A DNA stretch of 44,731 bases from a virus. This document shows, piece by piece, positions 3,351 through 39,793 of this stretch (the first letter of the stretch is position 1; each line of letters starts with the position of its first letter). Where the stretch lies: positions 1-44,731 of IMG/VR virus record IMGVR_UViG_3300021088_000019. The stretch is one strand, 5' to 3'. Position numbers and translations under genes: made by a program. The notes under the pieces were generated by a model. The model did no database searches and was not told the origin of the DNA. It worked only from the letters and a program-made list of their open reading frames with translations.

Positions 3351-3739
3351 GTCTGTAACTGAAGCACCCGCCGCTCAAATTCTTGCGCTGCGTAAGCTGG
3401 ATTGAACTTGCAGCATGGTCCGCTGGGAGTGTCGAGCCGCAAGCCCATTGCCTCGGGCGTTTCCATTAGCTCGCGTAACCGTACTTCGTCGATCTCCCAC
3501 ACGTAATGGCCTGCCAAGTAACGTTTCAATTGCTCGGGCGTGACATTCAATAGCTGCGCGATGCGCTCTAACTCCTTGAAACTGTGGAATATAAATGTCT
3601 TGCGCTGGCCGATGAACTCAAAACGCCCCTCAGCAACCTTGCGCAATTCACCAGCCAGCAGCATCTGCTCTTTCTCTGCCGTGCGCACGCGCTCCGCCGA
3701 TCCGTCTGGGTGATAGATTAAGAATTGCTTGGTGGGCAT
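3347..3739 (-). CDS. Hypothetical phage protein (130 aa), possible DNA-binding helix pair
   Basis: The ATG at 3739 directly follows the stop of the 45-aa gene (TGA then ATG, with no gap), and the gene is coupled downstream by ATGA. Residues about 55-90 (LERIAQLLNVTPEQLKRYL) read like a small helix-turn-helix or other helical bundle; the N-terminal part looks beta-rich (FLIYHPDGSAERV). No family assigned. A regulatory role is possible but unproven. Confidence 0.75.
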   Translation of the reverse strand: MPTKQFLIYHPDGSAERVRTAEKEQMLLAGELRKVAEGRFEFIGQRKTFIFHSFKELERIAQLLNVTPEQLKRYLAGHYVWEIDEVRLRELMETPEAMGLRLDTPSGPCCKFNPAYAAQEFERRVLQLQT

Positions 3740-3877
3740 TCAGTCTGATGTATAGATTTTGAAACGCTCAGGTACTGGCAAATTCGTGTTGATGGCAATC
3801 GCGTCTTTGGGTGCCGTGTAATTCCAGCTTGTTTTCAGCCACTTACGAAGCGTGCGAGTTAGCTTATATCTTCGCAT
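3740..3877 (-). CDS. 45-aa basic protein
   Basis: Found by following the stop that abuts the next gene: the frame from ATG 3877 to TGA 3740 is open and encodes a basic N-terminus (MRRYKLTRTLRKWLKTSW) and a neutral C-terminus. A GAAGGA lies upstream but about 13 bases from the ATG, longer than ideal. The end-to-end junction with the following ATG supports it. Function unknown. Confidence 0.55.
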   Translation of the reverse strand: MRRYKLTRTLRKWLKTSWNYTAPKDAIAINTNLPVPERFKIYTSD

Positions 3878-4055
3878 TAGAGAAAGAAAATCCTTCGGGC
3901 AAATCCACGCCATTACTTCCGACCTTACGCGCTAGGCGGATGCGCGGAACTATTCCCCTTCCAACTCTCGCTTTATCAGGGGCAGGGCTTGGGGTGTGAC
4001 AAGCTGGGCTGCCCCGAGGAGGCATTCGTTGGTTGGTTGCGAATACTGTAGACAA
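3864..4055 (-). CDS. Doubtful ORF in an otherwise gene-poor 200-base gap
   Basis: Between 3878 and 4075 no convincing gene is visible. This frame (63 aa from TTG 4055, or 53 aa from ATG 4025) is open but has no ribosome-binding site, low-complexity composition and no family resemblance. It would overlap the 45-aa gene by 14 bases. The stretch may instead be untranslated; I see no terminator or clear promoter in it. Confidence 0.25.
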   Translation of the reverse strand: MSTVFATNQRMPPRGSPACHTPSPAPDKARVGRGIVPRIRLARKVGSNGVDLPEGFSFSNAKI

Positions 4056-7322: not shown

Positions 7323-7930
7323 TTGCTCTCCCCCGCCCCCGCTATCCCGCTGCTGGCCCGCGCATTTTCGAGGGCCTCCAGTGCAACGTGGGCTGAAATT
7401 AACCCATCGCGCACGGCGTCTAACAACGAGCCGTCGATTTCCTCGGACAGTTCCTCTCGCGCATCGGCTTGGTAACAGGCTTCGAGCAAATTCTTACTAG
7501 CCTCCATCAGTACTTGCACTCCGTCTAGATTATGTGGCTGCGCCTGCGGCTGCGGCGTTTTCTCGTAGGGCTGCTCCACAGGCTGAGACAGCGGCTCGGC
7601 AGCCCCAAAGTTTAGGAGCACATGCCTTGCAAGCGCACGGTCAAAATCCTTGACGTTCTCTGGCAAATCTTCGTAATTATCCGCATGGCGCACATCGCCC
7701 TGTCGTTTCGCTTCGGCTTGATATATACGATGGAAGTCCGCAGCAAGAGATTCTAAATCTGGTAGCGTCCCTGCTTCGCGGGATGATTCCGCCGTCAGCG
7801 CCGCATCACACACTTTCCAAGCGTCGGCCCTTTGCTGCCATGTTGAACCATTTCCCAGGGCTTTCTTGGCTCGCTCCAAAGCTGCTCGCAAACTATCTTG
7901 CTCCCTCTTTTCACCAACCCCGCCACTCAC
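7319..7930 (-). CDS. Hypothetical helical protein (203 aa)
   Basis: ATG 7930 overlaps the upstream stop (ATGA) and its own stop overlaps the next start. The N-terminal ~60 residues are helical, the centre is a Pro/Gln-rich linker (PQPQAQP), and the C-terminal ~60 residues are again helical. The linker contains VEQPYEK, encoded by a 16-bp sequence repeated in the AAA+ ATPase gene. No domain recognised. Confidence 0.8.
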   Translation of the reverse strand: MSGGVGEKREQDSLRAALERAKKALGNGSTWQQRADAWKVCDAALTAESSREAGTLPDLESLAADFHRIYQAEAKRQGDVRHADNYEDLPENVKDFDRALARHVLLNFGAAEPLSQPVEQPYEKTPQPQAQPHNLDGVQVLMEASKNLLEACYQADAREELSEEIDGSLLDAVRDGLISAHVALEALENARASSGIAGAGESK

Positions 7931-8172
7931 GGCTGCACCTCTTTCAATCCGCGTATCGCTCGCGCCAACGGCTCATTTGGATGCTTAGTCCGCTCGCACG
8001 TTTTGTATCCGCCTGGCTCCGATGAGTCAATAATGCAATAGTGCGTCTCGACGAAAGCCGCAACCTCTTCCAATGTGGCATTGCGTATCATTGTCGCAAA
8101 TGCAGGAAGTCCTGCTGAAGTGTCGATACTTGGCCTCATGAACTTGCGCTCCCTTGCCCCTAGCTCGCTCAT
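7927..8172 (-). CDS. Hypothetical protein (81 aa)
   Basis: The start at ATG 8172 (MSELGARERKF) is selected because it overlaps the stop of the upstream acetyltransferase-like gene (ATGA); a longer reading to 8442 would lie inside that gene. A mixed alpha/beta protein with MIRNATLEEVAAFVETHYC in the middle. Function not known. Confidence 0.78.
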   Translation of the reverse strand: MSELGARERKFMRPSIDTSAGLPAFATMIRNATLEEVAAFVETHYCIIDSSEPGGYKTCERTKHPNEPLARAIRGLKEVQP

Positions 8173-8648
8173 GGCTGGACCTCCGCTTCCCACTTGAGCT
8201 TCTTTTGCTGCGGGTGCGTGTCCACCCTTGGCCTGCTCTCTCGGCTCCATTTGCCGCCTCCCGCTTCTCCGACCAACGTAAACCCCGCTGCGCGTAAGCT
8301 GAAGCCGCCCTCCTCGGGCAGCGTGTAGGTAATCAGCTTTCGATAGCCCATTGCCCATGCCGCACGGCGAGCTGCCCCGTAGAGCATCGAATTGGCGTTC
8401 TTTGTGCCATCCGTGCAGGTGCGATTGACTTCGAGCGTCCATCCGTCATCCAACATCCGACTCACTGGCCTGCCAACGATACACACGCCGCGAATGCCGT
8501 CGTTATTCGCTACGGCCAAGCAAAACTTCGCTCCCGGAACAGGCCGATGATGCCGATGCAACTTCTCGACAAACGCATTCGCCTCGTCCAGCGTCACCGG
8601 CACAAGCTCTAAAAAGTTATCGTCTGCCCCCTGCTCTACGCTGCTCAT
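8169..8648 (-). CDS. XF1762-like GNAT-fold protein (159 aa)
   Basis: The features LHRHHRPVPGAKFCLAV, then GVCIVGRPVSR, LEVNRTCTDGT and NANSMLYGAARRAA match the XF1762-type family, which looks related to N-acetyltransferases and is frequent in phages and mobile elements. Its substrate is not known. Full length for the family. The start is ATG 8648 and the gene is coupled to the next by ATGA. It follows the AAA+ ATPase after a 42-base gap without visible features. Confidence 0.82.
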   Translation of the reverse strand: MSSVEQGADDNFLELVPVTLDEANAFVEKLHRHHRPVPGAKFCLAVANNDGIRGVCIVGRPVSRMLDDGWTLEVNRTCTDGTKNANSMLYGAARRAAWAMGYRKLITYTLPEEGGFSLRAAGFTLVGEAGGGKWSRESRPRVDTHPQQKKLKWEAEVQP

Positions 8649-8690: not shown

Positions 8691-9719
8691 TCAGCGTCGG
8701 ATCTGTACTTCCGCCGTCCACGCCTGCGGTGCTTTTGCTTGATTGCTTGCCGAGCCGAATCCGATGTCGCCGGGGTCGTACATATTTGATTTCGGCGTGC
8801 TCTTCATCGTCTTGAGCCGCGCGATTACCTGTTCGTAGGGCTGCTCCAAACAGGTCACCGCCACAACAAGCTCTTTCAGGTGGGCGATGGACATTCCCTC
8901 AGTGTTACGCACCCACTGCGCGACGGGATGCTTTTCCACTTCGCTGTCGAGCAGATGCCAGAGGTATTGTTCACGCATCTCAGCGCTGGGCATTCCTATT
9001 TTCACAACTTCATCGAAGCGCGACGGTCGGTTAATGATTCGTGCGCCCAGCATCTCCGGGTAGTTCGTTGTGGCGATGTTCACCACGTTATCGGTTTGAT
9101 GCTCGCCGTCGAGTAGGGCCAGCAAATCGTGCTCGCCGTGCGCGTTGATGATTTCTTCCACATCCTCAAGCACAACGATTAGCGGTCGTTCCGGCTCAAT
9201 CTTCCGCAGTTGGCGCAAAGCGTGAACAGCAAGGCTCGGATGCTGGACGAGTACGACGATTCCGCCCTGTTTAATTAGGTCCTCAACTAGCAGGGCTAGC
9301 GTCGCTGTCTTGCCGGAGCCTGGAGGTCCCCACATCAGAATGCCGCGCTTGTAGAGAATGCCCCGGTCAATGAATCGCTGTTTGCGCTTCCAGAACAGTT
9401 TTATGCCTTCGATGACGCGGAGCGAATTAGAATTGCCCAAATCAATCAGCGTGTCTGTGAGAATTTTCTTGGCAACGAAAAATATCCCCGCTGGTGTTGA
9501 TTCCAAGCAGTACGCGCCGACCGGAAGATGTTCAGTAGTTGGACCTGCCGCCGCATACATTGCGTTCGGCATCACAACCCACTGAGTGTGCTCGGATGGA
9601 ATCTTGCGCCCTTCGCCTTCGGTAGCTTGTGCCAATTCATCGGGGCGCACGTGGCGCTGTGAACGCGGCGGCGCTGACTCCAGAATCTCTTGCAACTCCG
9701 TCATTTCGTTTTCAGCCAT
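8691..9719 (-). CDS. AAA+ ATPase (342 aa)
   Basis: Walker A GPPGSGKT at residues 131-138, Walker B IVVLEDVEE at 181-189, sensor 1 ATTN at 217-220, and candidate Arg fingers in NRPSRFD. The N-terminal ~120 residues form a variable domain. This is the single-AAA+ domain architecture of remodelling ATPases (FtsH/Cdc48/Bcs1 style) rather than a DnaB-type helicase. The partner and target are unknown; position among early genes suggests a role in DNA metabolism or host takeover. The start at ATG 9719 follows GGGAGAAAGC. Confidence 0.93.
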   Translation of the reverse strand: MAENEMTELQEILESAPPRSQRHVRPDELAQATEGEGRKIPSEHTQWVVMPNAMYAAAGPTTEHLPVGAYCLESTPAGIFFVAKKILTDTLIDLGNSNSLRVIEGIKLFWKRKQRFIDRGILYKRGILMWGPPGSGKTATLALLVEDLIKQGGIVVLVQHPSLAVHALRQLRKIEPERPLIVVLEDVEEIINAHGEHDLLALLDGEHQTDNVVNIATTNYPEMLGARIINRPSRFDEVVKIGMPSAEMREQYLWHLLDSEVEKHPVAQWVRNTEGMSIAHLKELVVAVTCLEQPYEQVIARLKTMKSTPKSNMYDPGDIGFGSASNQAKAPQAWTAEVQIRR

Positions 9720-10945: not shown

Positions 10946-11239
10946 CTACAGAAATAGGTGATAAATCCACCCGAAAAATAATGCGAACAACGGTGCGACA
11001 ATGCTTAAGGCTGCTGCTTCGCCAAACCCTCGCTTCTCTTTTGCATCGCTGCTACTGCTAGTCATAAAATGCACGACTAGACTCAAACCAAGGGCCTGCG
11101 GTATACGCAAAGGCCCTACTCCGAATGTGGTAACTATGAACCATGCCCATAGCTTCACGAGCACGAAACCCGACCACATAACTTCAAATGGAATCAGGAG
11201 CATCAAAGCTAAAAGCTTCCATCCACTTGTGGAGCTCAT
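10946..11239 (-). CDS. Integral membrane protein with 2-3 spans (97 aa)
   Basis: ATG 11239 overlaps the previous stop (TAATG). Hydrophobic segments lie at about residues 8-32 (LLALMLLIPFEVMWSGFVLV), around 36-58 and at 77-95 (ALSIVAPLFALFFGWIYHLF). A short charged loop with DAKEKRG separates the last two. An inner-membrane protein expressed among early genes; envelope modification or exclusion is possible, with no sequence proof. Confidence 0.78.
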   Translation of the reverse strand: MSSTSGWKLLALMLLIPFEVMWSGFVLVKLWAWFIVTTFGVGPLRIPQALGLSLVVHFMTSSSSDAKEKRGFGEAAALSIVAPLFALFFGWIYHLFL

Positions 11240-11505
11240 TAGTAATTCCTCGCAATCGCCCGCTGTATCTCATGGCACGTAATCTCTCGCTGGTCTATGG
11301 CTTCCATGTCTCGCTGGTTCTTGCATAGCCAGTTCACAACGAATCGCTTCCAGTTCCTGCGCTCGTTCGCTTTCTTTGGATTCGCTTCAATCCATGTCTC
11401 CATCTTCAAGATTTCATGCCCTACGCGAACCTGATTGAATACTTGCTGCCAGCGCTCGATATCTGCATCGGTGATTTCGCTCTGAAAGCGCTCAAGGGCT
11501 GTCAA
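11239..11505 (-). CDS. Small helical protein typical of phage replication regions (88 aa)
   Basis: A TTG start at 11505 with AAGGGG upstream overlaps a TGA (TTGA). Residues about 36-62 (KMETWIEANPKKANERRNWK, then RFVVNWL) form the motif often found in small phage proteins next to helicase loaders or primosomal components, where it ends in a W(L/I)N-type helix. I infer a replication-accessory role from this resemblance only. Confidence 0.7.
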   Translation of the reverse strand: MTALERFQSEITDADIERWQQVFNQVRVGHEILKMETWIEANPKKANERRNWKRFVVNWLCKNQRDMEAIDQREITCHEIQRAIARNY

Positions 11506-12137
11506 GACACAACCCCTTTTTCCCGCAGAGCTCCTGAGGTTGACCTTGAAATCTTTAGTGGCTGGCTTTGGGTACGGCTTCTATTCCCGAAGGCTTGTCG
11601 CTGGTCGTACAGACCCACACGGGCCAGTTTTATAGAAGCTTTCTCCCTAAGATATTCGCCAGTGAATACTGAGGTATCAAAATAAAAACACCCCGCCACA
11701 CATTTGCGGTATGCCAGTTCTCGGATTGGTGGAGATTTCTGGACGGAGTGATCTGTGTGGTTAAAAATTGGCCCACTGCTCCAGCCCATCGCTGGCAGAC
11801 GCTGGCCTGTTGCTGAGACGCTCGCGTTCGCGGGGTCCAACCCTCCGACCCTGTCCGTTGGAATGACGAGGGATTTTGGAGCGTCTCGGTAACAAGCCAG
11901 CCATAAAACGCTATCTGCTCGGTTGTTGGCTGGGAAAGCTGCGTAAGGTTGGATAAATGGTAAGACTTCATTGAACCGTAGCGCTCTCTTCGACAAGAGA
12001 CTTGTGACAGGCAACGGGCTACGGTTCAAAGGTAGGGACGCTGCCTGCCACAAATAGCATCCTGTCGCAATAGCACTTTTATAGTAGTTGCGCGTACCTG
12101 TCAATACCAGTACCGCAATATTTTTTCGTTTTTTCAT
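11502..12137 (-). CDS. Open reading frame of uncertain status (211 codons) overlapping a structured region
   Basis: The frame runs from ATG 12137 (weak GGTGAAG upstream) to TGA 11502, which overlaps the next gene's TTG. A frame this long is unlikely by chance, and the overlap is the style of this operon. Against coding: composition is rich in Ser, Arg and Leu without recognisable domains, a sigma70-like promoter lies inside it, a second frame is open for 113 codons, and strong long-range RNA helices cover its first half. I keep it as a weak candidate. Confidence 0.3.
   Translation of the reverse strand: MKKRKNIAVLVLTGTRNYYKSAIATGCYLWQAASLPLNRSPLPVTSLLSKRALRFNEVLPFIQPYAAFPANNRADSVLWLACYRDAPKSLVIPTDRVGGLDPANASVSATGQRLPAMGWSSGPIFNHTDHSVQKSPPIRELAYRKCVAGCFYFDTSVFTGEYLREKASIKLARVGLYDQRQAFGNRSRTQSQPLKISRSTSGALREKGVVS
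11577..11639 (-). other. Second structured segment: 8-bp stem with inner hairpins
   Basis: Perfect complementary arms GCTTCTAT (11577-11584) and ATAGAAGC (11632-11639) enclose a region with CTGG/CCAG arms (11601-11604 and 11624-11627), a GGTC-GACC hairpin (11603-11615) and, on the minus strand, CCTTCGGG with a UUCG tetraloop. It lies downstream of the U-rich run that may end the larger RNA. It may be a separate domain, a processing site or the leader of the 88-aa gene. Confidence 0.45.
11680..12071 (-). ncRNA. Candidate structured RNA with an interleaved-helix pseudoknot
   Basis: Helix P1 pairs 12055-12042 with 12013-12000 (14 bp; the two non-Watson-Crick positions become G-U only if the minus strand is transcribed). 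Helix P2 pairs 12029-12018 with 11982-11971 (12 bp perfect). They interleave, so they form a pseudoknot or are alternatives. A 6-bp hairpin (12000-11985) sits between. Further stems: 11933-11927/11903-11897 (7 bp), 11887-11879/11823-11815 (9 bp), a hairpin at 11807-11770, and 11760-11754/11702-11696 (7 bp) just before a U-rich run (11689-11679). No known RNA family is recognised. Confidence 0.5.
12076..12104 (-). promoter_or_regulatory. Sigma70-like promoter for the structured RNA
   Basis: A perfect TTGACA at 12104-12099 is followed by TATAAAAG: TAAAAG (12081-12076) is at 17 bases and TATAAA (12083-12078) at 15. Transcription would begin near 12070, about 15 bases before the 5' arm of P1. The position inside an open reading frame supports a separate RNA. 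Confidence 0.5.
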
Positions 12138-16212: not shown

Positions 16213-16671
16213 CATCTCTCCTTCGGCAGCGGTCCCACATATTTCTCGTAGGCGCTGGGCCAATCTACCATAATAGCCTTTTGCGCGGTCGCCAGATCAA
16301 GCGTCTTGTCGATGCAGACTAGGTGCTTGAGCTTGTTTTCCAGGGCATCTTTCCAGTGGAACTCTGGGGCCATCTGGACCCACAGGTTACGCTCATCGTC
16401 CAGGCCGCCGAGCTCAAGCGGGAGCAAATGGTCTATTTCCATCTTTTCAGCCAGCGGGCATGGTTTGACCTGGTACTCCGCGCAGACATGTTTCTTCATC
16501 GCGGGAGTGGTTTTGCGATAGGGTTTGGTGCGGAAGGACTTGGCGCAGATTTGCTTGGCATCGCTGGTGCACGACACCCGGAGTCAATGCAGGGTCTGGC
16601 TTGGCCTGCCCGTAGGCGCACGAAGCCAGCAGCAGAAACGCGCTAGCCAATCTTCTTAGCTGCTTGCCCAA
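16212..16671 (-). pseudogene. Exported HNH nuclease-like protein, split by a one-base frameshift
   Basis: From TTG 16671 (GGGAGG five bases upstream) one frame encodes a signal peptide with a lipobox-like LASC (MGKQLRRLASAFLLLASC) and KPDPALTPGV. About 16573 the homologous continuation moves to the next frame: SDAKQICAKSFRT, then IDHLLPLELGGLDDERNLW, the HNH core, and LVCIDKTLDL. The full span is 460 bases, one more than a whole number of codons. Secreted proteins with DPALTPG followed by an HNH domain are a known type. Either the gene is broken, the base is a sequencing error, or a shift is programmed; a GTG at 16577 could start the HNH part alone. Confidence 0.72.
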
Positions 16672-16792
16672 TGACCCCTCCCGCCGCACCGAGCGCAGCC
16701 GCGGCCTTTTTCTCGACGTAGCCGCCCCACATAAAACCGCCATAGCCACCTGCCAGCAAACAAGCAACCGCTAGAACGAGATACCAAATCAT
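16643..16792 (-). CDS. 49-aa membrane protein with glycine-rich span
   Basis: ATG 16792 stands four bases after AAGGAGG, one of the best ribosome-binding sites here. It begins MIWYLVLAVACLLAGGYGG, a single membrane segment, followed by an Ala/Gly-rich helix ending KKIG. In the lysis region, so a holin-related or pinholin-like role is possible. Ends inside the start of the exported HNH gene. Confidence 0.75.
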   Translation of the reverse strand: MIWYLVLAVACLLAGGYGGFMWGGYVEKKAAAALGAAGGVIGQAAKKIG

Positions 16793-16801
16793 ATTTCCTC
16801 C

Positions 16802-17434
16802 TTAGTGTTTTGCTGCTATGTAGCCTATGGCCCCGCCAATCACGATGTACTCCATCGCCTTCCAAGTCCTGTGCCACACACTTCCCCCTTTGACCGCTAC
16901 CTGTAAGGCGGTGTTCTCTGTTTTCAGCGAGTCTATTTGCTTCTGCGCGAGGACGGCTTCCTGTTCCCGCGTGGCAGCGTCGGCGGTGAGTTTCGCGTTT
17001 TGGAGCTTGCAATCCTCACAAGCCTGGATGTAGGCTTTCGCCTGTGGGAAATCAATTGAAGAAACTTGTGCAACGGTGGCTGGATTCGGATTGGCGGGCG
17101 TTGCTGCTGGCGTTGACAGGACTATGGGTTGTTTTAAGCCCATCAGCGATGCAATCAGCGAAGCCGTTTGTGCTGGCGTATTTGCTGATTGAAATCGTGT
17201 ATCGAGTGCTTTCAATTGTTGTTGATATTGGCTGTCCCTGTCCGCCATCTGCTTCTGTAAATCGCTGACCTGCTGAGAGTATTGCTGCTGGAGCTGTTTC
17301 TGCGTGTCTTGCACCGCCTGCGCTACGGCCTGTTCGCGTATCTTTGCGTCATGCTCATGCAATCCGACCGCGCCAACAATCACCAGCAGGACAGCCGCGC
17401 CAATCTCCAGCCAGGTTAAAGGGCGAATAGTCAT
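16802..17434 (-). CDS. Spanin-like protein: N-terminal membrane anchor and coiled coil (210 aa)
   Basis: Residues 8-25 (WLEIGAAVLLVIVGAVGL) form an anchor, 30-85 a Gln-rich coiled coil (QDTQKQLQQQYSQQVSDLQK), 115-180 an Ala-rich helix with CEDC, and the last 20 residues (YIVIGGAIGYIAAK) a second hydrophobic segment. The first part resembles inner-membrane spanins; the second segment is unusual and could give a hairpin or both membranes. It overlaps the previous stop (ATGA). Membrane disruption in lysis is inferred. Confidence 0.65.
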   Translation of the reverse strand: MTIRPLTWLEIGAAVLLVIVGAVGLHEHDAKIREQAVAQAVQDTQKQLQQQYSQQVSDLQKQMADRDSQYQQQLKALDTRFQSANTPAQTASLIASLMGLKQPIVLSTPAATPANPNPATVAQVSSIDFPQAKAYIQACEDCKLQNAKLTADAATREQEAVLAQKQIDSLKTENTALQVAVKGGSVWHRTWKAMEYIVIGGAIGYIAAKH

Positions 17435-17700
17435 GGCGGCGATGTCCCCGGAGGCGTTGTGGATTTAGTTCCAAAAGCGGCGGTCACGCGGTTTACGCCG
17501 TACAGCGTGCCGATGAACAGTACCAGCCCACCGAAGTCCGGTAGAGTGGTAGTTTTCCAGACGATGCGCGATACCCATCCAAGCGAAAAAGCGACCACGA
17601 AGCCCGTCGCTACACGCGAAAAGCTAGGTTGGTCGCCATCACTGAATACTCCACGCCAAAATGGTGTGTTCATAGGGGGCTGGGAGCCCTCACCTTTCAT
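17431..17700 (-). CDS. Two-span membrane protein (89 aa), lysis region
   Basis: ATG 17700 overlaps the previous stop (ATGA). Hydrophobic segments near residues 31-46 (ATGFVVAFSLGWVSRIVW) and 58-70 (GLVLFIGTLYGVN) suggest a hairpin topology, with a Pro-rich end (TTPPGTSPP). Candidate holin or antiholin by size, topology and location. Confidence 0.7.
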   Translation of the reverse strand: MKGEGSQPPMNTPFWRGVFSDGDQPSFSRVATGFVVAFSLGWVSRIVWKTTTLPDFGGLVLFIGTLYGVNRVTAAFGTKSTTPPGTSPP

Positions 17701-17945
17701 CGCAAACTTGCCATGTAAGCCTTTGAAAAGTAGCGCACGCTGAAGTGAATCAAGCCCCAGATGAGCAGTGGCAGCGTTACCCAGAACGGCACATAGCGGC
17801 AGACGGCCTGCGTCAGCATGGGAATGTCGTGTTTCTTGTCAATGCCCGCCCACAGCTCCCACACGCCGAAAGCCACCGCCCAGAACAGCCAGAACATGCA
17901 GCGCCAAAGGGTCCAATGCGTGGATAGGCCGGGAAGAGTCGTCAT
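17697..17945 (-). CDS. Two-span membrane protein (82 aa), lysis region
   Basis: The start at ATG 17945 overlaps the stop of the upstream gene; a longer frame to 18083 would lie over that gene. Membrane segments at about 15-33 (MFWLFWAVAFGVWELW) and 52-68 (VPFWVTLPLLIWGLIHF). Size and context fit a holin-like protein. One of three small membrane proteins in a row. Confidence 0.7.
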   Translation of the reverse strand: MTTLPGLSTHWTLWRCMFWLFWAVAFGVWELWAGIDKKHDIPMLTQAVCRYVPFWVTLPLLIWGLIHFSVRYFSKAYMASLR

Positions 17946-18130
17946 CGCAGTACCGGATGACGCGGCCAGTAGCCGCCCAGCAGCCCTGTGAAACTGAGCA
18001 ACCAAATAATGCAGATCACCACGATAATGACAATGGCGATGTTCTTGAACGGCTGCGGAATGGGCAGCAACGTGACCAGCCAATAGAGCAGGCCCATCAC
18101 AATCACCGCTACGAGAAGTTCGATTAACAT
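17942..18130 (-). CDS. Thivi_2564-type small membrane protein, holin candidate (62 aa)
   Basis: The pattern LLYWLVTLLPIPQPFKNIAI then VIIVVICIIWLL, with two membrane helices separated by a LPIPxPFK turn, is characteristic of a small phage/bacterial membrane family that I know as Thivi_2564-like. It starts at ATG 18130, overlapping the upstream TAA (TAATG), after GGAGAAAA. Holin activity is a reasonable guess from size and lysis neighbourhood. Confidence 0.75.
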   Translation of the reverse strand: MLIELLVAVIVMGLLYWLVTLLPIPQPFKNIAIVIIVVICIIWLLSFTGLLGGYWPRHPVLR

Positions 18131-18573
18131 TAATTTTCTCCAGTCAAAGCATCTTGTACTTGCTGGGAATTGTTTGGCCTGTCGCCCGCAATCTCGATGT
18201 CGCACTCGCCGCGCTCGATTGGCCCTTGTGCTTTGGCCCAGAAGTCATCAAACATCTGGCGGGAATTGCCGATGAAGTTTGCTTCCGGCATGGAGCCTCC
18301 GAGCAGGATGCACCCGCGAGTGTCTGCCGCCGTGTTGCCCCAGTGGATTTCAATCTCGCTGCGCCCGGGCACATCCACGAGCTGCGGAACCAGCCGTCCA
18401 AAGTGTGGCGAGGGATACGACACCAGTTTGTAGGTGCCGAGAGGGATAGCGGAGCCGGGCAGACCGTCACGAACAGGAAGCTCTAGCGTCCAGCAGAAAC
18501 GCTCGCCGTCTATGGATAGCTCCCCTTCTGTGCTTACGTCAGTGAAAGTAAAACGTTCTACTTTTAGGTGCAT
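18130..18573 (-). CDS. DUF5675-like protein, candidate lysis or cell-wall protein (147 aa)
   Basis: Key family features are visible: GELSIDGERFCWTLE, IPLGTYKLV, SPHFGRLVPQLVDVPGR, IHWGNTAADTRGCILLGG. The GN.A.DTxGC(I/V) block with Cys and His recalls the L,D-transpeptidase-like active site, but no activity is established for this family. As no classical endolysin is present and holin-like genes follow, this is the best endolysin-position candidate. It begins at ATG 18573. Confidence 0.8.
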   Translation of the reverse strand: MHLKVERFTFTDVSTEGELSIDGERFCWTLELPVRDGLPGSAIPLGTYKLVSYPSPHFGRLVPQLVDVPGRSEIEIHWGNTAADTRGCILLGGSMPEANFIGNSRQMFDDFWAKAQGPIERGECDIEIAGDRPNNSQQVQDALTGEN

Positions 18574-19123
18574 GTTGATGAGAGAACCCCGCTAGTAATA
18601 GGAAAAGGCCAACACATGCGAACGTGGGAAACCACAGATTCAAGCTGTGCCACTTTGGAAGCTCCCAGCCAACAGCGTACCCATAGCTGAAAACCGCCAA
18701 CATGACCCACAGCGCCAGCAAAGTTGCGTACACCATCTGGTCCAGCAGCATGAAAGGCACGGTGAATATCAGCGAAGTGGCCGCCAGCATGAACACAGCG
18801 CCCTGCACGATGGCGATTGCTGAATTGACTGTCGGAGGTCCGGGGAGGGCCAGATAAACCAGCCACGCCGTTCCTATTGCGATAATTCCAGAGGCCCAGC
18901 GTGGCCTGCCGATGTTGAGCGCGGCGGCGAGATTCCAAGGTCTGAGCAGGGCGAACGTCAGCTTGTAGCCGAACGCCTCTACGTCCTGGTGGCAGAGCTG
19001 GAAAGCCAGTTCGATACCCAGCGTGGTCAGCAGCTCTGCCGATAGATACAGCCGTAAGGGTCTACCCTTTGCCCTTGCTAGGGCTATCAGGATGCTGAGA
19101 AGTAGCAGGCTGGGGCGTAGCAT
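18539..19123 (-). CDS. Polytopic membrane protein (194 aa)
   Basis: Five to six hydrophobic segments, for example LRPSLLLLSILIALARA at the start, GIIAIGTAWLVYLALPG, AVFMLAATSLIFTVPFMLL and ACVGLFLLLAGF. The first ~60 bases overlap the previous gene and the last 35 overlap the DUF5675 gene in other frames. Phage genes of this shape are often unassigned inner-membrane proteins. It might be lysis-associated or modify the host envelope. Confidence 0.72.
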   Translation of the reverse strand: MLRPSLLLLSILIALARAKGRPLRLYLSAELLTTLGIELAFQLCHQDVEAFGYKLTFALLRPWNLAAALNIGRPRWASGIIAIGTAWLVYLALPGPPTVNSAIAIVQGAVFMLAATSLIFTVPFMLLDQMVYATLLALWVMLAVFSYGYAVGWELPKWHSLNLWFPTFACVGLFLLLAGFSHQHAPKSRTFYFH

Positions 19124-19250
19124 CTAGCTCGTAGGTCACTCCTTCCACAAGATATTCAATGTCTTTCGGCTTGGACTGCCAAAGCGTTTTGCCGTCCGCC
19201 GTTTTACTCAGCAGCGTTCCTAGAAATGACCCCGGTAATGGTGAGCCCAT
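19062..19250 (-). CDS. Hypothetical protein (62 aa)
   Basis: ATG 19250 follows AAGGAGAATTAAC. The sequence has TADGKTLWQSKPKDIEYLVE then GVTYELD, suggesting a small beta domain, and a Ser/Pro/Gly-rich tail. The 3' 62 bases overlap the membrane protein gene. No family recognised. Confidence 0.65.
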   Translation of the reverse strand: MGSPLPGSFLGTLLSKTADGKTLWQSKPKDIEYLVEGVTYELDATPQPATSQHPDSPSKGKG

Positions 19251-19263
19251 GTTAATTCTCCTT

Positions 19264-19557
19264 TTAGTCGTCTTTGCGAGTTTGAACTGTTCCCATCTTG
19301 CGCTGGTCAGTCATACCGATAAATTGCTCCATGCGAATCAAGATCCTGTCCAGCCGCTCGATAATCTCGTCTTGCTTTTCGGTATGGAGGTCGTGTTTTT
19401 CCTGCCAATCTTCGATATTTTTAACTCGCCAGTGAAAGTCTCGCCACACCCTCACAGCTATTAAGAGGCACGCCAAGCCCCCGATAACGTTCCCCAGGTT
19501 GATGGTCCAATCGAACTTCAGACCTCCACTGTCGAGGAAAATCATGCATAGAGTCAT
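19264..19557 (-). CDS. Membrane-anchored coiled-coil protein (97 aa)
   Basis: One membrane helix at about residues 20-38 (LGNVIGGLACLLIAVRVW) followed by a coiled coil (IEDWQEKHDLHTEKQDEIIE) and a charged tail. This shape occurs in many phage lysis regions next to spikes. It may be a holin partner or spanin-like; the function is unproven. The first possible start is used. Confidence 0.7.
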   Translation of the reverse strand: MTLCMIFLDSGGLKFDWTINLGNVIGGLACLLIAVRVWRDFHWRVKNIEDWQEKHDLHTEKQDEIIERLDRILIRMEQFIGMTDQRKMGTVQTRKDD

Positions 19558-19579
19558 TGGGCTTGGGCCTCATTTGCTC

Positions 19580-19978
19580 CTACTTTCCGAACTTTATAAG
19601 CAAGCCTGCCGCCGCAATGAGAATGCCGACGATGGTGAGCACGTTTCGCAAGGCTGCTTTCTTCAAATCCTCAATCTTGTCCTCAAGTGTTTTGAATCTT
19701 GCATCTGCTTCTACGCGGGGTATCAGCGTTGCCGCTTGGTCCTTTAGGCTCCCGCGAAACTCATTAACGCTATCAAAGCGCTTTTCCGTGGCAACCTCCG
19801 CCTTGGTGACGGCTTTCTCGCTGGACGTGAGAGCAAGTCCGGTCTTTTCGTCAGTGGACTGGAAGCGTTCCCCGTAACGGCGGTCGCGCTCTTCCATCAG
19901 TTCCTTGAAGGCTTTTAGCTGGTCCCTCAAGCCTGCAAGCTGATGCTCGAAATACTCCTTTAGCGCGATAGTGTTCAT
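19580..19978 (-). CDS. Coiled-coil protein with C-terminal membrane helix (132 aa)
   Basis: Starts with ALKEYFEHQLAGLRDQLKAF, continues with the Ala/Glu-rich repeats TSSEKAVTKAEVATEKRFDS and NEFRGSLKDQ, and ends in a hydrophobic helix (VLTIVGILIAAAGLLIKFG). I know this layout (EKAV..AE.A.EKR...NEFR) from many phage proteins lying between tail and lysis genes, with no proven role. Membrane topology suggests a late function. Confidence 0.82.
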   Translation of the reverse strand: MNTIALKEYFEHQLAGLRDQLKAFKELMEERDRRYGERFQSTDEKTGLALTSSEKAVTKAEVATEKRFDSVNEFRGSLKDQAATLIPRVEADARFKTLEDKIEDLKKAALRNVLTIVGILIAAAGLLIKFGK

Positions 19979-19983
19979 GCATT

Positions 19984-21291
19984 TTATTTAAGGCTTACAA
20001 CCCTAGAATTTTTATCGCACGAGCAGGCTAGCTGCCAACTAGCTAAGTCGTGGAAGCTCTTGCCGTTGCTCCACGTATTCAGTCCGCCGCTGTCTTTGAA
20101 CAAGTCCTGATACGTGTTATTGTCCACTGTCGATAGAGTCGTGTTCGGAAAACCCACATCGCCGTTCCCTCCGAATATCACGTTTCCGGTAAACGAGAAA
20201 TTAAGCTGGCCGCTTGCGACTACCCCGGCAGTCTTTCCCGAGTCGATTACGACTAGGTTCTTGGACACGGAGTTTCTCGTCGCGTGTGCCATGTGCGGAG
20301 CGCCAGCGGGATAGACTGTGTTATCCCACCACGCTACTTCGATTGGGATGATGCTGCGCCCGTTCGGTACGTGGAGGCGGTTGCCCGTTATCGAGATTCC
20401 CTCCACATCGCATTGGATGAACACGTAAGCGGTCGTGCAGCACGCGCCAGGGTCGCCGTCGAAGCTGTTTCCGGAGATGACGCCGCCAATAATCGTATTC
20501 CCTGCCCCAATGGCCCACAAATGGATGCCGTCGTGATGGTAAGTATCATTCGTGGAGTCCCACGCAGCGAAGTCGTGGAAGTGATTCCCAGTTATCGTTG
20601 GACCGCTAAACTTACCCGATGCACCGAACGCTACGCCATGATCAACGTGATACGCTTCGGAGTTCTTCACCGTGAGCCCGTTTCCGCCTCCAGCGAACGC
20701 CCAGCCTGCGTCGTGGCACGTTACATGGTCGATTGTGAAATTAGTCGAGTAAGGGAAATAGATGCACGGCACGAGGCTGGCCGATGAAAGCGCTAGGTCA
20801 CTCGCAGACGTTCGCACGTAAAGATTGACGATGGCCAGATTCTTAGTCGTGCAGTTGGCGCACTGGTAGGCGTATACGCCGTTGCTTGGCTTCTGATTGC
20901 CGAGTCCGGTTCCGTTCGCGGTATTCTGGATGACGCCGACGTTCGCACCGTCCACGACGATGTACGAACGCCCAGCAATGTTGACGGCTCCGTACTGACT
21001 CCAATAGGGAGCGGTGAGAATTGCCCCGGGCTCAAACTTGATGGTGATGGGAGCCGTAGCGGTGCCAGAGCCGGTGACCGTGAAGAGTCGCGCACCAGCG
21101 GTGCCGGTAAACGTGCTGCACAGGTGCCACGTATCGCCAGGATTGCCAGCTAGGGCGGACATCGCTTTCGCTGGGTCGGTGCAACTAGCGCCAGAACCTG
21201 TACCCGCCTGCGATATGTAGATGTCACTGGCGCGAGATGGCCGAGCGAGAAGCAGAAGCACTGAGGCGAAAACCAGTCTGCGAATCAACAT
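19984..21291 (-). CDS. Exported right-handed beta-helix protein, spike-like (435 aa)
   Basis: A signal peptide (MLIRRLVFASVLLLLA, cleavage after SRAS) precedes a long parallel beta-helix with short repeats of N-G/N-x-I/V types, such as NLAIVNLYVR, NFTIDHVTCHD, LTVKNSEAYHV, PTITGNHFHDF and ISITGNRLHV. Pectate-lyase-like folds of this kind form phage spikes that bind or cut polysaccharide. A Sec signal on a virion protein would be unusual, so it may instead be exported to the cell surface or periplasm. Confidence 0.8.
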   Translation of the reverse strand: MLIRRLVFASVLLLLARPSRASDIYISQAGTGSGASCTDPAKAMSALAGNPGDTWHLCSTFTGTAGARLFTVTGSGTATAPITIKFEPGAILTAPYWSQYGAVNIAGRSYIVVDGANVGVIQNTANGTGLGNQKPSNGVYAYQCANCTTKNLAIVNLYVRTSASDLALSSASLVPCIYFPYSTNFTIDHVTCHDAGWAFAGGGNGLTVKNSEAYHVDHGVAFGASGKFSGPTITGNHFHDFAAWDSTNDTYHHDGIHLWAIGAGNTIIGGVISGNSFDGDPGACCTTAYVFIQCDVEGISITGNRLHVPNGRSIIPIEVAWWDNTVYPAGAPHMAHATRNSVSKNLVVIDSGKTAGVVASGQLNFSFTGNVIFGGNGDVGFPNTTLSTVDNNTYQDLFKDSGGLNTWSNGKSFHDLASWQLACSCDKNSRVVSLK

Positions 21292-37921: not shown

Positions 37922-38530
37922 ATGAATACCGAAGCGTACAAACTCTGGAGAAAAGCCAACAAGGACAAGGTTGCCAAGTACATGCGGACGTGGCGTGCCA
38001 AGCACCCCGACGTAGCTCTGGCTAATTCCCGTAAATGGATTGAGAACAATCGGCAGAAAACGCGAGATGCGGCGAAGTCGTGGTATGACGCGCACCGCGA
38101 AGAGATAAACGCTAAACGACGCGAGGACCGTAAACTGAATCCCGAGAAATATTCCAAGCGCGAAAAACAAAGAGTCCGTGATAAAAACAAGATGGTTAAA
38201 TATCGCGCTAAGCACTACGAGAAACACAAGGAAAGAGTGACTAAAGAGAACGCTGCATATCATAAGGCCCATCCAGAAGTACGACGCACAATTAATTCTC
38301 GTAGGCGTGCAAATCTTCTTAGCGGAGGTAGGCACACAACGCAGCAATGGCTCGACAAACTTGCTGCAATTGGAATGATCTGCGTCTATTGCACGAAGGC
38401 TTTGGATTTTTCTACTCTCACTAAAGACCATGTAATTCCATTGAGCAAAGGCGGGACGGATGACATTGAAAACGTCGTTCCGTCCTGCCTCCGCTGCAAT
38501 CAAACGAAATCTTCCAAACTAGTAAATTGA
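37922..38530 (+). CDS. HNH homing-type endonuclease (202 aa)
   Basis: The first ~125 residues are basic helical repeats (KANKDKVAKYMRTWRAKHPD, KRREDRKLNPEKYSKREKQR), as in phage HNH enzymes whose N-terminus contacts DNA. The C-terminal nuclease has CVYC and CLRCN zinc pairs and the catalytic DHVIPLSKGGTDDIENVVPS. It is in reverse orientation, exactly between the capsid gene and the next gene, and its last 12 bases overlap the capsid stop. This fits a mobile gene that cleaves related genomes lacking it. Confidence 0.92.
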   Translation: MNTEAYKLWRKANKDKVAKYMRTWRAKHPDVALANSRKWIENNRQKTRDAAKSWYDAHREEINAKRREDRKLNPEKYSKREKQRVRDKNKMVKYRAKHYEKHKERVTKENAAYHKAHPEVRRTINSRRRANLLSGGRHTTQQWLDKLAAIGMICVYCTKALDFSTLTKDHVIPLSKGGTDDIENVVPSCLRCNQTKSSKLVN

Positions 38531-39793
38531 ACCAGCAGGAAGAGAAAGGGCTTTGATGTATGAACCGCTGAGCGGATTTCTATTATAAATTTGTAGCCCA
38601 GCTTTAAGATAAAACATCTCGGTAGAAACCAACTGCGTGCCGCCAGAGTATTGCGGCCACAGGATGTTGTTGCCGAACTTCACGAACCCTGTGTCCGTCG
38701 CCACGATGCGGCCCCAGAAGTTCATCATCAGGAAATCAACTCGGGTGCGGTCCTGGTGGATGGACTGCTTCACGGGCACGTTGCTCATGCTCAGCCCGCG
38801 CTGGTTGTTGAACATCAGGTCCACTTTCTGATTGCCTGTGGGGTCTTTGTAAATCACGGATGCGGTGATTGCCAGAGCCTCATAAGCATCAGCCTGCGCC
38901 GGGTGCGCATACGCAACCATCTTGGCGTCATTCTGGTTAAACCAATCATCGCCAAGGTTCATACGTACACGGTTCAGCGCAGCGCGGATAAACGCCGTGG
39001 TCAAAGGGCCAGAAGCCGCATTGACCGAAGGCGTTACGATGTTCGAGAACGTTGCGCGGTTGAGGTTGAGCCACAGGCCGGAAGTCGCATCGCTCTGGTG
39101 ATACTGCACACCAAAGAGAGACGATTGAATGGTCAGTGTGCCGGCCAACCCGCCGATCACCAGCAAATCGGTGGCAATGGTGCCGCCTGGAGCGGCGTCC
39201 ACGGTGACGGTGTGGCCAACCTTGTCGATGCCCACTACGTTCGCGGAGCCGCGATTGGTAGTCAGAGCCGCGTTGTACACCTGCACGTTCTGGCCGATGG
39301 CAAACAACTCTTCCTTGAATCCATCGCTCGTCAGCGTAAAGGTGTTGGTGGCTACCGAGGTGATAGTGCCGATCACGCCGTTACCGGCAGTGTTCAGCAG
39401 CATGTCCTGATAGGCGCGGAATTGGCGAATGCTGAGACGCATAACTTCGCCATCCGCACTCTTTACTCCGCGTTGCTGGCCCGTGGTCGCATACTTCGCG
39501 AGCAGCGTGTAGCTGTATCCGCCTGTGAAGTAGTACGGAGTCAGCGTAGCGACTTGCCACACTGGACCCCCTGTGGGACCGAGGGCTACGCCGTCCATCG
39601 AAACCTGCTGGAACGTGCCCCCAAGCTGTTGCAGCAAGGGAATACGTGTCGGGCGGTTCGATGCCGGGTCCGCTTCCTCTTTGTCCATCAGGGAAAGCAA
39701 AGGTGTGTCCACTTCGAGCAATTCAGGGATGCCCTTCTCGTAGATGATGAGTTCTCGCTCTAGCGGTTGGGCGTTTGCTTCGATTACTGACAT
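38519..39793 (-). CDS. Major capsid protein (424 aa)
   Basis: Follows the scaffold gene and precedes the connector genes. The N-terminus (ERELIIYEKGIPELLEVDTP, LLSLMDKEEADPASNRPTRI), the central beta-rich insertion (about residues 140-215: GTITSVATNTFTLTS, GHTVTVDAAP) and the end (VDFLMMNFWGRIVATDTGF) fit the HK97-like shell proteins of podoviruses. The insertion resembles an I-domain. Assignment rests on length, position and these features. Confidence 0.88.
   Translation of the reverse strand: MSVIEANAQPLERELIIYEKGIPELLEVDTPLLSLMDKEEADPASNRPTRIPLLQQLGGTFQQVSMDGVALGPTGGPVWQVATLTPYYFTGGYSYTLLAKYATTGQQRGVKSADGEVMRLSIRQFRAYQDMLLNTAGNGVIGTITSVATNTFTLTSDGFKEELFAIGQNVQVYNAALTTNRGSANVVGIDKVGHTVTVDAAPGGTIATDLLVIGGLAGTLTIQSSLFGVQYHQSDATSGLWLNLNRATFSNIVTPSVNAASGPLTTAFIRAALNRVRMNLGDDWFNQNDAKMVAYAHPAQADAYEALAITASVIYKDPTGNQKVDLMFNNQRGLSMSNVPVKQSIHQDRTRVDFLMMNFWGRIVATDTGFVKFGNNILWPQYSGGTQLVSTEMFYLKAGLQIYNRNPLSGSYIKALSLPAGSIY

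Follow-up and report, generated by a model that had tools for sequence, protein, structure and literature searches.

Few pseudoknot switches are, to our knowledge, known in phage mRNAs. The pseudoknot of the Escherichia coli rpsO leader alternates with a hairpin form, and the repY/repZ leader of ColIb-P9 combines a short leader ORF and a hairpin loop pairing with a downstream tail in mutually exclusive folds. The rpsO (S15) pseudoknot is located in the mRNA leader at the translation start and is stabilised by protein (PMC3858243), and the ColIb-P9 pseudoknot is of the IncI/IncB RepBA type (papers cited in PMC10724649). The leader of T4-type gene 32 was described in a 2010 review as possibly the only viral pseudoknot in translational autoregulation (PMC3014915). 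HK022 put is an RNA that acts in cis and directly follows an early promoter of the phage (PMC9378689).

The window, the whole 44,731-nt stretch analysed, is a virus record with recognisable genes on the minus strand for terminases, an AAA ATPase, a major head protein, and a tail gene; comparison of its first 25 kb gave no near match among annotated phages. The RNA element described below sits in a stretch of approximately 650 nt without a recognised gene. Its features are given in the order of minus-strand transcription and, where relevant, in relation to L029, the one homologous contig found.

12158-12370: small winged-helix gene (HTH_39, profile match) flanking the RNA
12099..12104, minus strand: -35 hexamer TTGACA (exact motif match), within TTGACAGG, which is common to L029
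12078..12083, minus strand: -10-like hexamer TATAAA (motif match), after a 15-nt spacer
12060..12067, minus strand: P0 5' strand CGACAGGA, its last base being the A of the first AUG (fold and covariation with L029)
12039..12055, minus strand: P1 5' strand (helix search and covariation with L029)
12019..12060, minus strand: short ORF MLFVAGSVPTFEP-stop, a possible leader peptide, candidate only, with a weak ribosome-binding site
12019..12035, minus strand: apical hairpin CUAC-CUUUGAACC-GUAG (fold; same in both phages, without variation)
12018..12029, minus strand: P2 5' strand UUGAACCGUAGC (helix search; same in L029)
12000..12016, minus strand: P1 3' strand (helix search and covariation with L029)
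11991..11998, minus strand: P0 3' strand UCUUGUCG (fold and covariation with L029)
11985..12000, minus strand: 6-bp hairpin UCUCUU/AAGAGA, 12000-11995 x 11990-11985, overlapping the P0 3' strand; not conserved
11971..11982, minus strand: P2 3' strand GCUACGGUUCAA (helix search; same in L029)
11686..11965, minus strand: further structured leader (fold), absent in L029, ending near a weak stem and a U-run
11239-11505: 88-aa gene on the other flank of the RNA

Comparison with the known systems showed partial likenesses. The element shares with rpsO a predicted leader pseudoknot, but it has no ribosomal protein gene, its helices are much longer, and a covarying competitor helix (P0) is present. 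Its likeness to the T4-type gene 32 leader is that a pseudoknot would lie close to the 5' end of the mRNA in a phage; its sequence, however, is unrelated, the helices are of 17 and 12 bp, and no gene 32-like or single-strand DNA-binding protein gene was recognised directly downstream of the window element. With ColIb-P9 repY/repZ it has in common a short leader ORF, loop-tail pairing, and mutually exclusive folds, whereas no plasmid replication gene accompanies it and no antisense RNA promoter was found. Nor was the coupled replication initiator of RepBA-type systems found directly downstream, the small proteins of the window being without a rep match and the L029 position being taken by an HNH-type endonuclease. 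Like put, the element follows a phage promoter, but put consists of two stem-loops of approximately 70 nt, and no such pseudoknot is described in the sections of its source used here. Rfam 15 covariance models, applied at the gathering score to the window and L029, gave chance-level matches only and no family, as the sequence-only reading had held, and the pseudoknot riboswitches and self-cleaving ribozymes in Rfam likewise gave no covariance model match. Because gene context and Rfam do not fit, membership in the S15, T4 gene 32, or ColIb-P9 systems is not claimed.

The promoter is TTGACA-N15-TATAAA with 0 mismatches at 12104-12078, the sole exact match in the window. The TTGACA noticed earlier ahead of P1 is thus at 12104-12099 with TATAAA 15 nt further, and a transcript start at about 12071 is predicted from its position. 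The -10 region motif CTWCTATAAAASTG occurs in two exact minus-strand copies 450 bases apart (11638-11625 and 12087-12074); as a genome-wide phage promoter it was rejected, no other close copy being present in the window. On the plus strand, a hairpin at 12087-12130 (TTGCG-GTAC / GTAC-CGCAA, fold z -3.4) followed by TATTTTTTCGTTTTTT could be read as a terminator directly upstream of the minus-strand promoter, and is a candidate end of an antisense RNA.

On minus-strand RNA, P1 comprises 17 bp (12055-12039 x 12016-12000) including 3 G-U pairs, and P2 comprises 12 bp (12029-12018 x 11982-11971), all Watson-Crick. Both helices were found where the sequence-only reading had placed them and they do cross, the 5' to 3' order being P1a-P2a-P1b-P2b; the 14 bp given there for P1 are its core, which grows to 17 bp when G-U pairs are allowed. 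The statement that such helices are very unlikely by chance was borne out by 60 shuffles of the window keeping local dinucleotides, in which crossing helices of at least 12 bp each within at most 110 nt arose 0.017 times (about 0.02) per strand, against one occurrence, P1/P2, on the real minus strand. Minus-strand RNA 12071-11971, the initial 101 nt of the predicted transcript, folded at -44.6 kcal/mol with z = -5.3, and minus-strand 12080-11921 ranked second for excess stability when the entire window was scanned. The top-ranking segment for excess RNA stability was 38401-38560, just after the major head protein gene.

A search of 2.9 million virus contigs with a gapped pattern built on both arms of P2 returned a single matching contig, L029, a 43.8-kb record carrying the element on its minus strand. 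The window and L029 are otherwise far apart, with a few weak protein matches, and share an identical 24-nt core CCUACCUUUGAACCGUAGCCCGUU, identical P2 arms, and the TTGACAGG promoter at nearly the same distance from the element; similarity stops just past P2. P1 differs in sequence in L029 and is still paired. The comparison also exposed a third helix, P0 (12067-12060 x 11998-11991), which extends P1, and both leaders fold alike. P0 is followed by a bulge of one base or a 1x1 loop, then by a GCU/AGY helix of three pairs and a bulge of 3-4 nt; P1 comes next, capped by an apical stem of four pairs with loop CUUUGAACC. The nested 6-bp hairpin of the sequence-only reading is present in the window, but it is not kept in L029 and overlaps the covarying P0.

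Of the 8 pairs of P0, 3 differ between the two phages by compensatory changes and 1 by a one-sided change; of the 14 aligned pairs of P1, 4 differ by compensatory changes and 3 on one side, and no pair is broken in either helix. P0, P1, and the apical stem together hold 26/26 pairs in both phages (7 compensatory changes, 4 one-sided, 0 broken). Moving the 3' partners by 1-3 columns reduced pairing to 33-48%, a clear control, and a shuffle control, limited by there being two sequences only, gave 7 of 500. P2 is invariant between the two sequences, and covariation does not prove its pairing, which is supported by exact 12-bp complementarity and by conservation. The compensatory changes that the sequence-only reading had looked for in both helices were accordingly found in P1, and P2 did not vary. 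Read as plus-strand RNA, only 23 (window) and 21 (L029) of the 26 pairs hold, because of the G-U pairs, and the RNA is therefore assigned to the minus strand; minus transcription, already proposed for the window, is thus favoured by sequence in both phages.

The 211-aa and 113-aa ORFs that overlap the RNA gave no Pfam or PHROG match, the 211-aa ORF had no tblastn relative, and codon log-odds were 0.00 for both compared with 0.17 per codon for the ATPase. A protein-coding explanation of the region was rejected on the basis of these missing relatives and the lack of codon bias, and the situation that would have counted against an RNA, a protein frame conserved without the complementarity, was not seen.

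The element heads a same-strand gene run in both phages, and each run contains a phrog_503/DUF559-like gene, the pair being 36% identical. The directly downstream genes differ, a point against the two-state reading given below: an HNH-type endonuclease (phrog_2340, E 2e-19) in L029, and small uncharacterised genes in the window. Just upstream of the homologue in L029, an ORF at 3366-3983 encodes a long Gly-Tyr/Ser/Asp repeat (GSGYGYGYGSGYG...).

The element is very likely a real, previously undescribed regulatory RNA, and the promoter-proximal 5' leader of the phage operon is probably a cis-regulatory RNA with two states. State A would be a single long hairpin of P0, P1, and the apical stem, taking up approximately the first 80 nt of the transcript; the first AUG would be hidden and the GCUACGGUUCAA tail unpaired. 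In state B, P0 would be open and the apical loop would pair with the tail (P2) to give an H-type pseudoknot with P1, with dimensions for window/L029 of S1 17/16, L1 9/9, S2 12/12, L2 1/1, and L3 17/19. On geometric grounds P0 and P2 should exclude each other, because closed P0 leaves 8 nt (window) or 6 nt (L029) for more than 25 bp. The earlier proposal of a pseudoknot or switch is thus supported in its outline, but P1 and P2 need not be mutually exclusive; it is P0, which had been missed, that excludes P2. Estimated energies, in which the pseudoknot values are rough and include one generic penalty, were -44.6 kcal/mol for state A and about -44.2 kcal/mol for the pseudoknot in the window, and -49.7 and about -44.9 kcal/mol in L029, a gap within about 5 kcal/mol. 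Comparison of the two sequences establishes the arrangement of promoter and RNA, P0 and P1 as minus-strand RNA helices, and the conservation of the core and P2; formation of P2, switching between the states, and control of the downstream genes are inferred. The most likely trigger would be occupation of the P0 5' strand, leaving P2 able to form; the occupant could be a ribosome translating the short ORF or, with equal likelihood, a protein ligand. Such an element would be compact (approximately 135 nt) and attached to its promoter, with the clear prediction that P0 and P2 are rivals, and the proposed switch has the backing of covariation in a pair of phages that otherwise share only distantly related proteins.

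Two further explanations can also be sub-versions of the two-state leader. In one, a phage or host RNA-binding protein on the pseudoknot or apical loop would repress the operon in the manner of gp32 at the T4 gene 32 leader. A variable stem topped by an unchanging loop and core is characteristic of protein-binding RNA, and a 5' pseudoknot operator has phage precedent (PMC3014915); however, the two phages share no candidate binding protein beyond the DUF559-like gene, and such an operator would not need P0; this explanation is somewhat unlikely. If a protein is the route, the element would be another phage pseudoknot operator beside that of T4 gene 32.

In the other, a 13-14-codon ORF (ML...VPTFEP-stop), which runs from P0 to P2 in both phages with its UAG stop inside P2 and has MLSGAVRGVPTFEP-stop as its L029 counterpart, would be translated, perhaps slowed at Glu-Pro-stop, and would thereby open P0/P1 and decide P2, like ColIb-P9 repY/repZ. 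The AUG is at the same place in both phages, the frame is kept despite a one-codon difference in the ORF, and the changes CTA/CTC and GTC/GTA beside the helices are synonymous. Against these points, a Shine-Dalgarno sequence is either lacking or poorly spaced, conservation of the identical core may have to do with the RNA instead, and open in-frame ORFs would occur in both phages by chance in perhaps 3-4% of cases by our own estimate. A leader-peptide switch is likewise somewhat unlikely; it would be an unusual one for a phage if the short peptide is the route. It is doubtful that the two phages represent a novel class of leader in phage mRNAs, with translation of a very small conserved peptide flipping the long hairpin into the H-type pseudoknot and so setting operon expression.

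A promoter-proximal antiterminator acting in cis on RNA polymerase would fit the location: a sigma-70-like promoter lies immediately ahead, the element opens a long series of genes on one strand, and a terminator-like structure follows further down. The placement of putL is the same (PMC9378689). Put has two stem-loops, compared with one long hairpin or pseudoknot here, and this explanation is quite unlikely. Similarly improbable is a free-standing noncoding RNA of approximately 390 nt, from 12071 to about 11686, acting in trans, in which the conserved hairpin would be the 5' domain. The 396-nt stretch folds far below shuffles (minus z = -5.1), includes a 23-nt stem (11901-11879 x 11823-11801) in the strongly structured 300 nt downstream of the element, and lies in a gap without a recognised gene, with a U-run near 11686. 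The plus strand, however, folds about as well (z -4.8), and a separate 390-nt RNA is not claimed because the 3' part has no L029 counterpart and the structure resembling a terminator near 11686 is a weak one (z -0.8 to -1.4). Inverted DNA sites for a DNA-binding protein, suggested by two TTGAACCGTAGC arms identical in both phages, are very improbable, as they leave the P1/P0 covariation with minus-strand G-U pairs unexplained and the conservation extends to the core beyond the arms.

A class defined by the promoter, the P0/P1 hairpin, the CUACCUUUGAACCGUAG core, and P2 comprises the window and L029 as its only two members, its model having been built from both; two sequences back a structure and do not define a family. 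Annotated phages and plasmids gave no matches beyond chance. Carriers of the ACCTTTGAACCGTAGC core among viral contigs (L030-L033) and of the CTACCTTTGAACCGTAG core among GTDB genomes (L036-L038) were without P1/P2 and were attributed to chance. An exact 17-mer of the apical hairpin had three chance matches in 84,980 genomes, no GTDB genome carrying the element, and because of this the element looks rare or divergent elsewhere. The crossing helices of L025 and L026 differ from the element and do not match its model; the same crossing helices occur in both contigs (L025 7982-7890 and L026 2420-2328), where a frame begins whose translation resembles an HNH-type protein.

In phages sharing the ATPase (L001-L005) or the terminase (L006-L010), neither blastn nor nhmmer nor the covariance model detected the RNA. 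L004, L012, and others gave short blastn matches that were rejected as chance, at least the one in L004 lying within a gene. The crossing helices of L004 are inside a predicted gene, and their equal distance from the ATPase is a coincidence. The AAA ATPase gene of L004 (9872-11698), related to window 8691-9719, contains an insertion that weakly matches the Pfam intein splicing domain. Of the other phages sharing the ATPase, L002 has a dense run of about 23 tRNA genes at 16489-20313, and L005, a 188 kb phage contig, has a tmRNA gene at 7709-8086. In the window, a 159-aa ORF at 8169-8648 weakly matched the Mom DNA-modification family, at a level below the cutoff (E 0.0013).
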